Virus record (IMG/VR): IMGVR_UViG_3300031951_001505
Coordinates: 1 to 20,312 of that record
DNA length: 20,312 nucleotides
From: a virus
Reading direction: 5' to 3' (one strand)
Shown: piece by piece, positions 11,707-18,625 of the stretch
Layout of the letters: each line of letters starts with the position of its first letter
Numbering within the stretch: position 1 is the stretch's first letter
Made by a program: the position numbers and the translations under genes
Notes under the pieces: model-generated
The model's input: the letters and a program-made list of their open reading frames with translations, nothing else
The model's database searches: none
Told to the model about the DNA's origin: nothing

Positions 11707-11900
11707 TGAAGCTGGTAAAAGATAGTTTTGAGTGGAGAGACCCAAAAACTACCTTTAATTCCCCTAATCACCCACGGCGTTGGTTTCATTGTAGAGAAGT
11801 AATAATGCCAGAGGGTGCGGGAGGTAGGATTGTGACTGTATATAATCACGAGATACACGGAGCAAAAAATGCCATACATAAACAAACCAAGGCCGTATGA
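11703..11900 (+). CDS. Small phage protein, 65 aa, unknown function
   Basis: Two adjacent ATG codons (11703 and 11706) fit. AGGAG at 11695-11699 is three bases from the first and six from the second, so the shorter form may be the main one. The first ATG shares an ATGA junction with the nuclease stop. The protein is basic, with FEWRDPKTTFNSPNHPRRWF and a His/Cys-containing middle, and shows no known motif. It is transcribed between the nuclease and the HNH-like gene and overlaps the latter by 32 bp. Confidence 0.6.
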   Translation: MMKLVKDSFEWRDPKTTFNSPNHPRRWFHCREVIMPEGAGGRIVTVYNHEIHGAKNAIHKQTKAV

Positions 11901-12180
11901 TAAAGAATACCAACAAGAGAAGGCGCGGGGTGAACACCCTGACCGCATGGAGCGTCAACGCGCACGTCGAGCGATGGACAAGAAGGGGACGGATGCCAAC
12001 GGCAATGGTAAAGCAGACAAGCGTGAAGGCAAAGACATAGCGCACAAGAAAGCTTTATCAAAAGGCGGTAGCAATAAAGACTGGGTGATGATACAGTCAG
12101 CGTCCGCGAATCGTTCTTTCAAACGAGCAGCCTCTGGTGCGTTAATGTCAGAGACAAGCAAGCGCGAAAGAAAGAAGTAA
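11869..12180 (+). CDS. HNH-like phage protein, 103 aa
   Basis: The C-terminal half contains GKDIAHKKALSKGGSN followed by SASANRSF, a pattern that matches small phage HNH-type proteins (DH..PLSKGG..N, then NRSF). In many of these the first residue of the pair is Asp; here it is Ala58 before His59, so nuclease activity is doubtful. The N-terminal half is very basic, with many Arg and Lys, fitting DNA binding. GGAG (11860-11863) lies five bases before ATG 11869. It is the last gene before a 244-bp non-coding gap. Confidence 0.65.
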   Translation: MPYINKPRPYDKEYQQEKARGEHPDRMERQRARRAMDKKGTDANGNGKADKREGKDIAHKKALSKGGSNKDWVMIQSASANRSFKRAASGALMSETSKRERKK

Positions 12181-12424
12181 GACTACGGGCGAAAACGGAA
12201 GTGCTGGCAGGAGACTTTGGTCAGTTCACTCCGCACGGAAGTAAGTAGCCCACCAACAAGGTGTTTGCCGTAAGGTGTGAGTGGGCGGGGGTTTTTCCGC
12301 AAGGGTTTCCCCCCATTAACCGCATCAGTTATTTAGTGTCTACCCTTTCTTGCAATACTCCTTGACACGGATGTAACCGACTAACCCCCGTAAGGGGTCA
12401 CGTTAACTTTACAGTGAGGCAAAA
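12181..12424 (+). other. Structured non-coding gap between HNH-like and helicase genes
   Basis: No convincing gene lies in these 244 bases. They hold an ACGGAAGT direct repeat (12195-12202 and 12235-12242); a GCCCAC/GTGGGC stem (12248-12253 with 12281-12286), followed by GGGGGTTTTT and then a CCCCCC run at 12309-12314 that could pair with the G run; and a small ACCCC/GGGGT hairpin (12384-12388 with 12394-12398). The G-rich stem plus T run would serve as a terminator for the upstream genes. No convincing promoter was found for the helicase gene. Confidence 0.6.
12248..12296 (+). terminator. Probable transcription terminator
   Basis: GCCCAC (12248-12253) pairs with GTGGGC (12281-12286). Five G and then five T (12292-12296) follow. 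The 27-base loop is long and contains its own CACC/GGTG hairpin, so folding is uncertain, but the position, after the end of the polymerase gene group, fits an intrinsic terminator. Confidence 0.45.
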
Positions 12425-14417: not shown

Positions 14418-15251
14418 ATGAGCACAGAACTCGCAACCATTTTGGCAAACAACCCACTGATGATTCAGACGGGTGTTGATGAAGATACCACAGCGGTAGC
14501 TGGCGGTGGTGGTAATCAGACTAAGCGCCTTTCAATCAAGGGCGGTGTGTTCCGTAAGATGGTCGGTGGTAAGGAAGTCGGTGCTATCGAAGACCGTCAC
14601 ATGAACATTATCTTCGTGAAGATGGCACACAGCGCGTCGCGTCAATGCTACGAGGGTACATATGAAGAAGGAAAAGTCGCATCACCCGTTTGCTGGTCTA
14701 ACGATTCCGTTAAGCCTGATGCTGATGTTGAATCTCCCTGCGCTCCGTCTTGCGACGTCTGCCCTAATTCCGCAAAAGGTTCTAATGATTCGGGTGTTGG
14801 TGCGAAATGCAAGCTGTCATGGCGTACCGCTGTCGTCCTCCCGCAAGACCCTAGTGGTGACGTATTGGAATTCGTTGTCCCGGCAGCATCGACTTTTGGC
14901 AAGGAAGAGAATGGACGCTGGCCTTTTAAAGCATATATAGGAATGCTTGCGAACAACAACGTGTCGAAAGGTCGTGTTGTGACTAAGGTTCAGTTCGATA
15001 CCAAGGTGCAGTTTCCTAAAGTGTTGTTCTCCCCATCGGGTGCAGTTGACCCCAACGACTACGACACCGTTGCCGCACAGGGTAAGACTCCGGCTGCTGA
15101 AGCTGCGATCAAGCTGACTGTGTACAAGAAGAAAGAAACAGGGGAAGAAGTGTCAGTGGCAGAACCGACAGTGCGTGAATCAACCAAACGCGCTCCGGCA
15201 CAAGCAACAGATGCTACTGATGTAATTAAAAAGTGGACTAAGAAAGCATAA
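14418..15251 (+). CDS. Candidate ssDNA-binding protein with cysteine cluster, 277 aa
   Basis: The start ATG 14418 follows AAGGA (14407-14411). A GGGG-containing N-terminal arm leads to KRLSIKGGVFRKMVGG, then beta-rich segments. Cysteines at 77, 92, 108, 112, 115 and 131, with CAPSCDVCPNSAKGS at the centre, look like a zinc site. The C-terminal 60 residues (Ala, Thr, Lys-rich, ending DVIKKWTKKA) look flexible. Phage proteins of this layout, with an IKGG..F start and a CxxxCxxC pattern, are found next to polymerase and helicase genes. I take it as a possible ssDNA-binding protein, by context and by analogy with the zinc-binding T4 gp32. No direct family evidence is visible. Confidence 0.55.
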   Translation: MSTELATILANNPLMIQTGVDEDTTAVAGGGGNQTKRLSIKGGVFRKMVGGKEVGAIEDRHMNIIFVKMAHSASRQCYEGTYEEGKVASPVCWSNDSVKPDADVESPCAPSCDVCPNSAKGSNDSGVGAKCKLSWRTAVVLPQDPSGDVLEFVVPAASTFGKEENGRWPFKAYIGMLANNNVSKGRVVTKVQFDTKVQFPKVLFSPSGAVDPNDYDTVAAQGKTPAAEAAIKLTVYKKKETGEEVSVAEPTVRESTKRAPAQATDATDVIKKWTKKA

Positions 15252-15259
15252 GGAGAACC

Positions 15260-15574
15260 ATGTCGCGGCCATACAGTACGAAGTTTTTGAGTGAGCTAGA
15301 TAGCGTGGATGACACCTACCGCATTGGTTACAGAATGGCGAAGCTGTGTGTAGCAGCAAACCTGCCAGCCAAGTATGTAGCTGAAGCGGTAGAAGTTTCT
15401 CGCGCCACTGTTCATAACTGGTTTCGCGGCGCGGTGTTGCGTGGTAAAAACGAAGATATAGCTTTGGCTTTCATCAGGCTTATAGAGAAGGACTTGGAGG
15501 CAGGAGTATTACCCGTCAAGTCTGTGAAGGGAGCCAAAGCCTATATTGAAGACATGATTGGTAGACCGATTTAA
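15260..15574 (+). CDS. HTH DNA-binding protein, 104 aa
   Basis: Residues 36-57 (PAKYVAEAVEVSRATVHNWF) are a classical helix-turn-helix with recognition helix SRATVHNWF, preceded by a helical AKLCVAANL segment and followed by RGKNEDIALAFIRLIEKDL. The size, 104 aa, suits a phage transcription or replication regulator, and similar proteins are known in podovirus-like genomes. Clear AAGGAG at 15251-15256 lies three bases from ATG 15260, a short spacing. It is the last gene before a 174-bp non-coding gap and could bind there to control the primase gene, which is speculation. Confidence 0.75.
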   Translation: MSRPYSTKFLSELDSVDDTYRIGYRMAKLCVAANLPAKYVAEAVEVSRATVHNWFRGAVLRGKNEDIALAFIRLIEKDLEAGVLPVKSVKGAKAYIEDMIGRPI

Positions 15575-15748
15575 CGGGGAAAAGCGGATGCTGTGGAATA
15601 AGGCAGACAATTAATAAGTGCGAATTGTTAGTTGTCATAGCGCACCTCGCTAGGGGGTGTTGCCGAATATCTTGGCTATAACAGACGTAGCGAGTACCCC
15701 ACCCATTAACTAGGCAGGAGAAATCCTGCCTTTCTTGTCTCTGCGGAT
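15575..15748 (+). other. Structured gap before the primase gene
   Basis: These 174 bases show no convincing gene. They hold an inverted repeat CTCGCTA (15646-15652) and TAGCGAG (15688-15694); a competing pairing GGGTG (15655-15659) with CACCC (15700-15704); and a final hairpin with T-rich tail. A 9-codon ATG frame at 15594 was not treated as a gene. An attenuator leader, a small RNA, or part of a replication origin next to the primase all remain possible. Confidence 0.55.
15712..15740 (+). terminator. Terminator-like hairpin just before the primase gene
   Basis: AGGCAGGA (15712-15719) and TCCTGCCT (15724-15731) pair perfectly around a GAAA tetraloop and are followed by TTCTTGTCT, a T-rich tail. 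It ends nine bases before the primase start codon, which has no strong ribosome binding site. It therefore either terminates upstream transcription and is bypassed, or acts as an attenuator of the primase gene. Confidence 0.65.
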
Positions 15749-18625
15749 ATGATAAAACAATTTTACGAGAAAGCATTGCCTTCGCAGGGCGTCTACTGTG
15801 TGGCAAAGATAGACAACAAACGCACCACACAGAGATTTGCGGAGTCCATAGATGATGTCGAAAATCTTGCAAGACAGTTTGCGCTGGAAAAAGCTAACGT
15901 CTACGTCGCCCTTGCATCCTTCGACGGTTATTCAAGGAAGGCAGAGGATGCGCAATTCCTACGTTCATTCTTCATCGACTTGGATGTTGGAGTATCAAAG
16001 GCACAAGTTAAACGTGGCTATGTATCTCAATCCGAGGCGCATATTGCCCTACAAGTCTTCTTGGCTAGAACAGAATTACCGCCCCCCGTCATCGTCGATT
16101 CTGGCACAGGAGTACATGCCTATTGGTTCTTCGACAGGGACATTCCTGCTAAAGAATGGAAGCCGTACGCTGAGAAATTCAAGGCGCTATGTATCGAGAA
16201 CGACTTATACATCGACCCAGTTGTTACAGCAGATGTGGCGCGGATCATGCGCTGTCCTGAGACGTTTAATTACAAGACTACTCCACCTAGTAAGTGCGAA
16301 GTAATCACTGACGAACTGCCTGTCTACTCGTTCGATGAGTTTAAAGAATTCTTAGGGATAGTAGAAGAAACGCCAGCGGAAATCCTAAAGAACCTGCCAA
16401 AAGGTTTGGACGAGGATACCAAGGCGTTGATGAAGCTCGACAATCAGGAGACCTCCTTTGAAAAAATTGCCATTAGAAGTCTGGAAGGCGATGGATGCGA
16501 ACAAATCAAATGGGCAATTGAAAATTCTACAACTCTTCCGGAACCTGTCTGGACAGCCGTCTTATCCATTGCACAACATTGTATCGACCGCGATGAGTCT
16601 ATCCATAGACTATCAGAGGATTATCCCGGCTATGATGCGGCAGAAACGGAACGCAAAGCTACACTGCGCCAAGGAAAACCCTATTCCTGCACAGTCTTCG
16701 ACAACGAAAACCCCGGCATCTGCGACACCTGCAAGTACAAGGGCAAGTTTACCAACCCTCTCGCGCTCGGACGAATCATCAAAATTGCGCAAGCCCCTAA
16801 AGAGGACGCAGTTCGGCAGTACGAGAATCCCGAAGATATTCCAGCGAACGTAATCCCTGACCATCCACAGGCGTTGTTCCCCTACTTCAGGGGCGAGACA
16901 GGCGGCATTTACTATCAGCCGCCGCCCAAGGTGGACAAGAAGGGTAACAAGACAGAGCAAGACGCGCAGCTAATCTACCCCCATGAGTTGTTTCCGATAC
17001 GCCGGATGTACAGCAAAATGGACGGCGAGATTTTGATGATGCGCCTTCTGTTGCCTAAAGACGCACCGCGTGACTTTATGATCACCACTCGAAGCCTGAA
17101 TGCGTCTGACGAGTTCAAGAAGGCAATCGGTTTTATGGGTATCGTGGGTAACGCAGGTAAGCTACAACACATCATGGGATACATAATGAAATGGGGTCAC
17201 TACTTGCAGACTCAGGCAGAAGCCGAGTTGATGCAGATGCAGATGGGCTGGACGGAGCCAGTAGGCGACGAGCGACTGGGCCGAGAGTATGTCATCGGTA
17301 ACAGTTTAATTAAAGCAAACGGGAAGATTGTCCCAACGCCTGCGTCACCTATGGTTCGCAGTGTGGCAAAACACTTTGAGCCGAAAGGCAGCTTTGAAGT
17401 CTGGCGCGAATGCGCTCAGCAGTTGAACCGCCCAACGATGGAGATGCACGCGTTTGGCACGCTGATTGGTCTGGGTTCGCCTCTCATGCCCCTGACTTCT
17501 ACACCGGGCGCGGTCGTTAGTTACACTGGTAAATCAGGCAACGGAAAGACCGGCGCGTTGTACGCAAACTTGAGCGTCTGGTGTAACCCAGTCGGTATCT
17601 CTGTGTTTGATGCAACGAATAACGGCTTGAACCAACGGTACGTGACTCTAAAGAACGCAGCGTTCGGCGTTGATGAAGCGCATACCCGTAAGCTAGAAGA
17701 ACTCAGCAAGATGGTTCACGCTATCTCGCAGGGTAAAGCCAAAATCAGGATGATGGGGTCAATCAACGCTGAACGGGAGCATGAACTCTTAGCGTCGGCG
17801 ATTGCCATGATGACCTGTAACGTGCCACTGCTGGATATGATTATGTCCAACAACTCTATGGCAACAGGCGAGATGGCGCGGATGATTGAGTTTCTTGTAA
17901 TGAAGCCACAGCTATTGATCGACGAACCGAGCTTTGGCCCCAAAGTCTTTGACTTGTTCAAGTACAACTACGGTCACGCTGCGCGTAAGATTATCCCTGC
18001 CTACTTTACCCACGGCGAAGTAGCCTTGAAGCAGATGGTGGATGAGTGGATTGCCCGGTTTAAACGAGACTTTGGCAACGACGCGATCTATCGCTTCTAT
18101 GAGAACATTATTGGGGCAACTATGGCAGGGGGTATGGTAGCCAACGAGTTTGGCATCATTGAGTATGACCTAGAGCGCATTTACGCTAAAGTCTGCGGTG
18201 AGATGATTAATATCCGAGATAAGGTGGTGAACCTTGGCGAGACCGATTACTCGTCGTTGATCGGTGACTTCATCAATAAATACTACACAGGCATTCTGGG
18301 CATCAACGACGGCAAGGTAACGATGGAGCCGAGAACTAGCCTTGTAGGAAGAATTGATTTAGCTACAGGTCTGGTCACTGTTTCCACAACTGAGTTTAAG
18401 AAGTATCTGACTGAGAAGCATGTTAGTTCACGCGAATTCGAGCAGAACATGCGGGAGAAGAAAATACTGGTCGATGTGAAAAAATCCCGCTTGGACGCTG
18501 GCTGGAAGCAAGCGCTGAGTATTCTTGATAAGAACATGAATGTGAACACCTATGTCTTTGCGACCCAAATCCCAGATGCTTTCTTTGCCGCCGATGGACA
18601 TGGAGAAGCTAACGGAGGAACCTGA
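15749..18625 (+). CDS. Primase-polymerase/helicase fusion, 958 aa
   Basis: This protein joins a priming half and a helicase half. The N-terminal part carries archaeo-eukaryotic-type primase motifs: FIDLDVG with D77 and D79, SGTGVHAYW (118-126, H123) and VARIMRCPETFNYK (163-176). A cysteine group, C314, C325 and C328, lies between the halves and may bind zinc, as is common in phage primases. The C-terminal half has P-loop GKSGNGKT (594-601), Walker B VDEAH (D642, E643) and a TCNVP sensor, fitting DUF927-like or SF3-like helicases. A winged-helix-like tail (about 880-945) follows. It is a complete replication primase-helicase. ATG 15749 is the only plausible start, although it lacks a strong ribosome binding site. 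Confidence 0.88.
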   Translation: MIKQFYEKALPSQGVYCVAKIDNKRTTQRFAESIDDVENLARQFALEKANVYVALASFDGYSRKAEDAQFLRSFFIDLDVGVSKAQVKRGYVSQSEAHIALQVFLARTELPPPVIVDSGTGVHAYWFFDRDIPAKEWKPYAEKFKALCIENDLYIDPVVTADVARIMRCPETFNYKTTPPSKCEVITDELPVYSFDEFKEFLGIVEETPAEILKNLPKGLDEDTKALMKLDNQETSFEKIAIRSLEGDGCEQIKWAIENSTTLPEPVWTAVLSIAQHCIDRDESIHRLSEDYPGYDAAETERKATLRQGKPYSCTVFDNENPGICDTCKYKGKFTNPLALGRIIKIAQAPKEDAVRQYENPEDIPANVIPDHPQALFPYFRGETGGIYYQPPPKVDKKGNKTEQDAQLIYPHELFPIRRMYSKMDGEILMMRLLLPKDAPRDFMITTRSLNASDEFKKAIGFMGIVGNAGKLQHIMGYIMKWGHYLQTQAEAELMQMQMGWTEPVGDERLGREYVIGNSLIKANGKIVPTPASPMVRSVAKHFEPKGSFEVWRECAQQLNRPTMEMHAFGTLIGLGSPLMPLTSTPGAVVSYTGKSGNGKTGALYANLSVWCNPVGISVFDATNNGLNQRYVTLKNAAFGVDEAHTRKLEELSKMVHAISQGKAKIRMMGSINAEREHELLASAIAMMTCNVPLLDMIMSNNSMATGEMARMIEFLVMKPQLLIDEPSFGPKVFDLFKYNYGHAARKIIPAYFTHGEVALKQMVDEWIARFKRDFGNDAIYRFYENIIGATMAGGMVANEFGIIEYDLERIYAKVCGEMINIRDKVVNLGETDYSSLIGDFINKYYTGILGINDGKVTMEPRTSLVGRIDLATGLVTVSTTEFKKYLTEKHVSSREFEQNMREKKILVDVKKSRLDAGWKQALSILDKNMNVNTYVFATQIPDAFFAADGHGEANGGT

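Follow-up and report, generated by a model that had tools for sequence, protein, structure and literature searches.

The gap between a small HTH-like gene and the primase gene of this virus carries, directly at the stop codon of the former, a hairpin belonging to what looks like a structured RNA family without an Rfam match, apparently frequent in uncultured phages and not found in print. Members of the family form their helices as sense-strand RNA, mostly begin at or just past the stop codon of a same-strand gene, and are associated with upstream genes of SSB type. In the virus described here the element is followed by a second, terminator-like hairpin, which has counterparts in front of related primase genes.

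The window, that is, the whole stretch of 20,312 nucleotides analysed (a 20-kb virus record), codes for a family A type DNA polymerase, a helicase, an exonuclease, and a primase/helicase. Relatives of its polymerase are found in the Pseudomonas phages KPP25 and phiR18 and the Rhizobium phage RHph_TM29 (35–37% identity), while by primase the nearest isolates are Pseudomonas phage Rollin (24.5%) and Rhizobium phages (22%). All features described below lie on the plus strand. A gene for a phrog_27714 protein (14418–15251), which may have an SSB role and whose family is also found directly 5' of the element in other phages, is followed by the HTH-like gene (15260–15574), with weak HTH/repressor matches of which the Pfam ones are under cut-off, and then by the element, whose first base is the last A of the HTH-like gene's TAA stop codon. 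The primase/helicase-like gene (15749–18625) has PHROG matches to DNA primase/helicase families, with DUF927 present in its relative L006; a scan of IMG/VR with this primase yielded 50 loci carrying a related one.

The element in the window

The element next to the primase gene (copy B, 131 nt, 15574–15704) scored 59.3 bits (E 1.6e-8) with R1, a covariance model made from 37 sequences, and 57.1 bits with R2, which was trained on this copy among others. Its layout is AC-GGGG-AAAA-GC-GGAUG-P2-apical-P2'-ACGUA-GC-GAGUA-CCCC-ACCC. The P1 strand GGGG (15576–15579) pairs with CCCC (15697–15700), the helix 2 strand GC (15584–15585) pairs with 15690–15691, with compensatory changes at both pairs in the family, and the P2 strand CUGU (15591–15594) pairs with ACAG (15681–15684). 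Between P1 and helix 2 lies an internal loop of probable bulged-G (sarcin-ricin-like) type, with AAAA on its 5' side (15580–15583; GAAA in most copies) and GAGUA on its 3' side (15692–15696; R-AGUA in the family, the AGUA being preset by the search patterns). The apical domain (15595–15680) holds CTCGCTA and GGGGGTG; it is unusually long in the window, L001, and L002, and is missing from the close relatives L006, L009, L010, and L014. A second copy (copy A, 12185–12255) starts 4 nt past the stop of the ORF at 11869–12180 and has P1 GGGC/GCCC and a compensatory helix 2, AC/GU; it scored 33.2 bits with R1 and 44.1 bits with R2, which was trained on this copy too.

Comparison of the gap among primase relatives showed AACGGGGAAAAGCGGAT ... 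GTAGCGAGTACCCCACCC or a close variant in L001, L002, L006, L009, L010, L011, and L014; L047, with a primase of just 43% identity, has a diverged form. A first pattern scan matched 47 viral stretches, and a loose pattern that left three of the four P1 pairs free matched at least 120. Because R1 is strict, giving the window's own copy A only E 0.0018, its copy counts are lower bounds: one copy in 39 and two in 2 of 41 pattern-found records, and an element in 7 of the 39 records that have a related primase. Two copies stand in tandem in L011, L084, L243, and L262. From the P1 count onward, loci L098–L136 (the same regions as other loci) were left out, as was L001 (the same as the window) from the 112- and 134-copy sets described below, and the pattern matches L238 and L241 were judged to be chance and dropped; the L034 copy, probably also chance (no R1 or R2 match), is counted within the 112 copies and 109 loci given below.

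Structure and covariation of the family

The family shape consists of A-C, a 4-bp P1, GAAA opposite RAGUA, helix 2, GGAUG opposite (ACG or UG)NA, P2, a variable cap, P1', and ACC. No pairing filter was applied to the 105 copies used for the P1 count, the 101 used for covariation, or the 29 short forms; the 112-copy set used for loops and flanks holds P1-paired copies only, and the 134-copy placement set also needs helix 2 paired (except L047), so that pairing counts from these two sets are not independent, the copies having been chosen by pairing. The patterns of the first scan and the short-form scan fix P1 or nearly so, and the loose pattern and the scan that gave L238 and L241 fix only part of it. 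Element copies are also mutually related.

P1 is paired in 105 of 105 distinct copies, a count that includes copies from patterns fixing P1 and in which the first pair is always preset, and 24 of these helices are other than GGGG/CCCC. Besides GGGG/CCCC (81 copies), the types are GAGG/CCTC (10), GGGC/GCCC (5), GGGT/GCCC (3), GGAC/GTCC, GCCC/GGGC, GGAG/CTCC, and GGCC/GGCC (one each), and two copies with one G-U (GGGG/CCTC and GGGC/GCTC). Over nine pairs in 101 distinct sequences, aligned by fitting to the structure model, 91.1% of cells are paired as against 83.7% in shuffles, and the covariation score is 0.213 as against 0.083; none of 500 shuffles reached either value. Both sides change in 8 of the 9 pairs. 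When the partners were slid by one column, paired cells fell from 91 to 40–51% and covariation from 0.213 to 0.039 and 0.125, the latter with the +1 slide. RNAalifold, given the same model-fitted alignment with the structure withheld, recovered P1 and helix 2, and 5 of 6 pairs show double changes.

P2 is more variable. Counting two 3' registers and omitting 4 of 102 copies, its pairs 1–4 are formed in 95, 96, 93, and 79 of 98 copies, as against 89, 74, 76, and 41 of 98 when strands were swapped between copies. In these pairs G-U occupies 24 cells and C-A only 5 on the sense strand, an excess that marks the sense strand as the one that folds as RNA.

In the internal loop, 106 of 112 copies have G at position 7 and the other 6 have A, the patterns allowing only these two letters, and the AAA at positions 8–10 was preset by the pattern. 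GAAA opposite AGUA corresponds to the consensus of the sarcin-ricin/loop E motif. The arrangement found, GAA opposite AGUA between two covarying helices, suggests a bulged-G loop of this kind, with the proviso that GAAA and AGUA were preset by the patterns and that copy B has AAAA. An RNase P- or tRNA-like end was also considered, for which the bases concerned, the ACC tail and the first G-C pair, were likewise preset by the patterns.

A scan with P1 fixed found 29 distinct short forms, all with a helix 2 of at least 2 bp (29/29) that exchanges between GC/GC, GU/AC, and similar pairs, and the shortest complete hairpin among them measures 30 nt (L275). Judging from these short forms, P1, the bulged-G type loop, and one helix seem to be indispensable, with GGAUG and the cap as elaboration. 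Several caps recur across different loci (GUCAAGGAUAG, GGACGAA, CUGCACUCGAAGGCGC, CUUUGGUCAGUUCA, and CUUCACAUAC) and may represent tertiary-contact or specificity classes.

Placement and neighbouring genes

Of 140 distinct copies, 134 have 150 nt of upstream sequence and make up the placement set. In 115 of the 134 a same-strand ORF of at least 45 codons has its stop no more than 16 nt before and 1 nt past the first base of the element. Gaps of 3, 4, and 5 nt account for 38, 13, and 30 copies (81/134), and in 11 copies, the window's among them, the last A of TAA is shared with the element. The placement is absent in 19 of 134 copies, of which some are second members of tandem pairs and others are not. 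The 5' flank is U-rich (GAUUWACG or AAGUUUACG), the 3' flank reads CACC-Y-UUU, and the next start codon lies a median of 25 nt downstream of the element, within 30 nt in 57 of 110 copies. Stop-codon readthrough was considered and rejected because, with gaps of 3, 4, and 5 nt, the element begins in differing frames past the stop.

The 115 upstream proteins fall into 37 families and the 98 downstream proteins into 51, so the upstream side is less varied. The upstream proteins often have SSB-like tails: a C-terminal "-PF" is present in 33 of 115 (31 of 100 distinct tails), as against 37 of 2502 six-frame ORFs, and at least four acidic residues among the last ten in 44 of 115, as against 69 of 2502; this background, six-frame ORFs of at least 100 aa from the same loci, is rough and not one of curated genes, and it includes the upstream genes themselves. 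Among the upstream families are several distinct ones for ssDNA binding (phrog_44/PF00436, phrog_18154/7364, phrog_6015/378, and PF10991), each in 2–3 of 53 representatives. Downstream genes are mixed (methylases, polymerase, helicases, MazG, and primase) and have no common function; a riboswitch, with a conserved aptamer serving one pathway, was set aside on these 98 proteins in 51 families of mixed function. As a set, the loci make up a mosaic network: 88 of 109 are linked via loci that share at least two ORFs, and no gene family reaches more than 28 of them.

The initial annotation had raised the possibility of a small RNA gene in the gap. A structured RNA is indeed there, but its first base is also the last of the upstream stop codon, and the window has 18 promoter-like sites as against 21.8 expected from shuffles. 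A replication origin next to the primase, the other suggestion made there, finds no trace in the GC skew, which is positive in all 19 windows of that analysis with no turn near 15.6 kb, the record being a 20-kb genome fragment only.

The terminator-like hairpin and the primase slot

The stem with a GAAA loop and a T-rich tail that had been described as ending about nine bases before the primase start is present as described. It occupies 15712–15731, with strands AGGCAGGA and TCCTGCCT forming 8 bp (5 GC) around the 4-nt GAAA loop, and is followed by TTCTTGTCTC, the T-rich tail reaching to about 15740, and by the primase ATG at 15749; the stem ends 17 nt and the tail about 9 nt before the ATG. 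Fold energy for the 174-nt stretch 15575–15748 gave z = -2.4, with 5 of 200 shuffles equally good. A 7–10-bp stem with a T-rich end lies 14–25 nt 5' of the primase start in 44 of 46 relatives with upstream sequence. Strict criteria (at least 6 bp, at least 4 GC pairs, and at least 4 T of 8) are passed by 40 of the 46 and by 3 of 460 mononucleotide shuffles; of the six that fail, L027 and L028 are without such a stem, and in L029–L031 and L046 the T run falls within the stem. The best hairpins of the 46 relatives comprise 22 distinct ones, including the non-fitting hairpin shared by L027 and L028; their letters differ while the pairing is retained, and the 15712–15731 stem with its counterparts is a conserved terminator-like signal.

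As in an intrinsic terminator, 15712–15740 combines a GC-rich stem and a short loop, here GAAA, with a T-rich tail. It differs in that the U-tract is interrupted (TTTCTTG) in the window's clade, with 5 of 8 T in the window compared with 7 of 8 in L038–L041, L043, and L044, and termination in the window could be poor. Conservation of the hairpin with changed sequence and kept pairing makes lowered or conditional transcription of the primase gene plausible. Conditional primase expression, as initially proposed, therefore retains some footing, though not through the attenuator mechanism offered for it (see below). No clear Shine-Dalgarno sequence precedes the primase start, either in the window (15732–15749) or in relatives, and many relatives have a CTCTGC-like string before the ATG.

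The contents of the slot in front of this stem vary across relatives. It may hold the element, a short GAAA-capped hairpin right past the stop (L012, L034, and L045), a small ORF (L003–L005, L016, L017, and L019–L022), or almost nothing (L007 and L038–L041), and the terminator-like stem persists in relatives without the element. Since slot contents exchange while the stem stays, the element is an accessory of the slot. In L003–L005, L016, L017, L019–L022, and L054, a small lipoprotein-like ORF rich in cysteine (MKYLIAIWAIAAAGMAYAGC... and relatives) takes the place of the element or lies next to it.

Occurrence

The element is frequent in viral contigs and rare elsewhere. Among 84,980 cellular genomes, one per species, the loose pattern gave four matches, of which one is credible: L231, on a phage-like contig in a MAG, scored 74.4 bits with R2 and has flanks resembling those of the viral locus L202. 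The other three were rejected, L229 and L232 being inside ORFs with P1 unpaired, and L230, although its P1 pairs, being read here as the antisense of a coding frame. In 50,697 phage records, blastn with a canonical copy as query gave three partial matches covering 25–41% of that copy and none covering 80% or more; the one match of full identity (20 nt) is antisense inside a gene and was discarded. A search of plasmids gave no match. R2 at E≤1 found nothing in the isolate phages KPP25, Rollin, RHph_TM29, and R4900a (0/4, in a search without a positive control). The neighbourhood of L155 had no match among isolates, and that of L218 had 38, which among the matches listed fall only at a methylase gene outside the element.

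Rfam, which includes the known ribozymes and STAXI (discussed below), gave no match in release 15 at the gathering threshold for the window and 18 loci, and chance-level matches or none at E≤10 for four stretches with copies. Nothing was found on the element sequence, its core string, or the motif type in the literature covered, which consisted of open-licence PMC papers.

Possible functions

The near-fixed stop distance, the sense strand, the SSB-type genes upstream, and the unspecific downstream side suggest a border element for the upstream message. The explanation we prefer, though only tentatively and with real doubt, is that the element punctuates an operon of early replication genes and shields or tunes the mRNA lying upstream of it, while the terminator lowers primase expression. 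The gap between the HTH-like and primase genes would then place two RNA signals in one early-operon transcript, the element at the stop codon followed by an intrinsic terminator. A host factor, or the stability of the RNA itself, would make the element a border that either shields the 3' side of the upstream mRNA from decay or sets a transcript processing site; the upstream gene would often be one for an ssDNA-binding protein, needed in large amounts. The terminator would cut transcription, leaving primase to be made from read-through in the window phage. Against this reading, the window gene directly 5' of copy B is the HTH gene and not an SSB, and 19 of 134 copies lack the stop-codon placement. 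The element and terminator need not cooperate, as the stem stays in relatives without the element and the many start codons that lie within 30 nt of it leave little room for a terminator. If the element sets the dose of SSB relative to polymerase and primase, phages would have in it a general means of RNA-level control over their replication machine, one that the 30-nt minimal forms open to direct testing in a reporter.

Hairpins of the REP and puf type are intercistronic and stabilising. The element resembles them in being a hairpin just past a stop codon inside an operon, with a proposed role in setting the dose of the upstream gene; it differs in its strictly conserved internal loop and frame and in being phage-borne, and for it stabilisation is putative. 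The L17 downstream element (PMC2864571), a structured RNA linked to a single ribosomal gene in Lactobacillales and Listeria, also lies 3' of a gene for a nucleic-acid-binding protein, but the phage element follows many gene families.

A barrier acting by mechanics alone would not require such a strict core, so a specific binder, a ligand, or catalysis may be involved. A bolder and rather unlikely extension is that the element is a phage-only RNA module (one of 84,980 cellular assemblies, and no cultured phage in the searches) that reads or controls ribosome exit at the stop codon of an early replication gene, either as a switch responding to the ribosome or to SSB, or as a small ribozyme of a new kind, and so sets SSB-to-replisome stoichiometry in uncultured phages.

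The element might also be a translational operator, through which the downstream gene is repressed once the hairpin and the U-rich stretch preceding the next Shine-Dalgarno sequence are bound by an RNA-binding protein of phage or host, perhaps the SSB encoded just 5' of the element. The SSB-type upstream genes and the CACC-Y-UUU flank, often followed by a Shine-Dalgarno sequence with the start codon at the short median distance given above, are consistent with this. So is the precedent of T4 gp32, which binds a pseudoknot and an A+U-rich stretch over its own ribosome binding site (PMC3014915). That leader is, like the element, a structured mRNA site linked to a phage SSB, but it is a pseudoknot in the SSB gene's own 5' leader where the element is a hairpin 3' of an SSB-type gene; it and the put RNA discussed below serve as functional comparisons only. 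An operator is unlikely, as several distinct SSB families would need to read one RNA, many copies follow other genes, and downstream functions are not shared.

Small ribozymes and processing sites typically combine a strict core with helices and caps that are free to change. The strict internal-loop core of the element, its variable helices and caps, and its intergenic position could thus point to a self-cleaving ribozyme, or a site for a dedicated endonuclease, that splits the polycistronic mRNA between the stop codon and the next gene. We regard this as quite unlikely: the core can be as small as a 30-nt hairpin and the caps differ widely, so that little would remain for catalysis, and Rfam returned no match.

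We consider a structured ssDNA or mobile DNA cassette, that is, a recombination, priming, or homing site, improbable. Bulged-G loops are a motif of RNA, the sense strand has mainly G-U and few C-A mismatches, and a same-strand gene stops just 5' of the element in 115 of 134 copies. The cassette would account for gain, loss, and replacement of the element in one slot among relatives, for tandem copies, and for the SSB and replication genes nearby, and it has a precedent in STAXI (Ssbp, Topoisomerase, Antirestriction, XerDC Integrase), a structured RNA candidate found in tandem near genes for ssDNA binding and DNA handling, for which such a role was considered (PMC2864571). By neighbourhood STAXI is the closest described case, the element also lying near such genes and also occurring in tandem. 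STAXI is, however, a pseudoknot repeated two or three times, whereas the element is a nested hairpin with a bulged-G type loop, mostly one copy per record and placed past a stop codon; membership was rejected on this consensus and on the lack of any matching Rfam model.

An antitermination RNA that, like HK022 put, lets RNA polymerase read through a terminator behind it is very improbable. The put RNAs are cis-acting, phage-borne, and about 70 nt long (PMC9378689), and the window element lies directly 5' of a terminator-like stem; but put consists of two stem-loops downstream of early promoters, and the element is a single stem with internal loops, behind a gene in 115 of 134 copies, which also excluded it from put membership. 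Copies whose next start codon is at most 30 nt away (57 of 110) and relatives that keep the stem without the element also count against this role.

Least credible is the attenuator of the initial annotation, in which CTCGCTA/TAGCGAG and GGGTG/CACCC would be mutually exclusive pairings that set termination. The repeats do exist, CTCGCTA (15646–15652) and TAGCGAG (15688–15694) forming an exact 7-nt inverted repeat with GGGTG and CACCC also present. The minimum-energy fold of 15570–15710 is the family fold (-43.5 kcal/mol), and forcing the CTCGCTA/TAGCGAG pairing (-42.6 kcal/mol) costs just 0.9 kcal/mol, so that energy alone does not decide against it. However, CTCGCTA is not conserved, being absent from L006, L009, L010, and L014, neither pairing includes the terminator stem, and the family fold accounts for the conserved strands: TAGCGAG and the CCCCACCC end, with CACCC, are the conserved 3' strand of the larger element starting at 15574, which had not been noticed.

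Other structures near the element

A second structured-looking RNA lies directly 3' of the element in L054, L064, L138, L139, L145, L148, L162, L181, L182, L185, L190, L200, and L205; the 7 of these 13 loci that were scanned gave no Rfam match for it. It consists of a GCCYAGC..GUGGCGNGUAAC.. hairpin followed by a stem, for instance GCAUACGCA..UGUGAGUAUGC, whose CUCCU loop might base-pair with the Shine-Dalgarno sequence that comes next. In L061, L166, L191, and L224 the element is followed by a recurring UCAAUGGCCCUAG...CAUCAGG..CCUGAUG...GGGGCCACCC and variants, and in L137, L149, L158, and L173 by UUUUGGGGGGAAAGC...AGCAAGUACCCCCUCC, before a gene read as MazG-like; the latter structure is perhaps a diverged relative of the element, with R2 scores of 15–23 bits in L137, L158, and L173. 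A small hairpin of the type CCCG-GAAAGA-CGGG recurs near the element in L139, L182, L205, L052, and L250.
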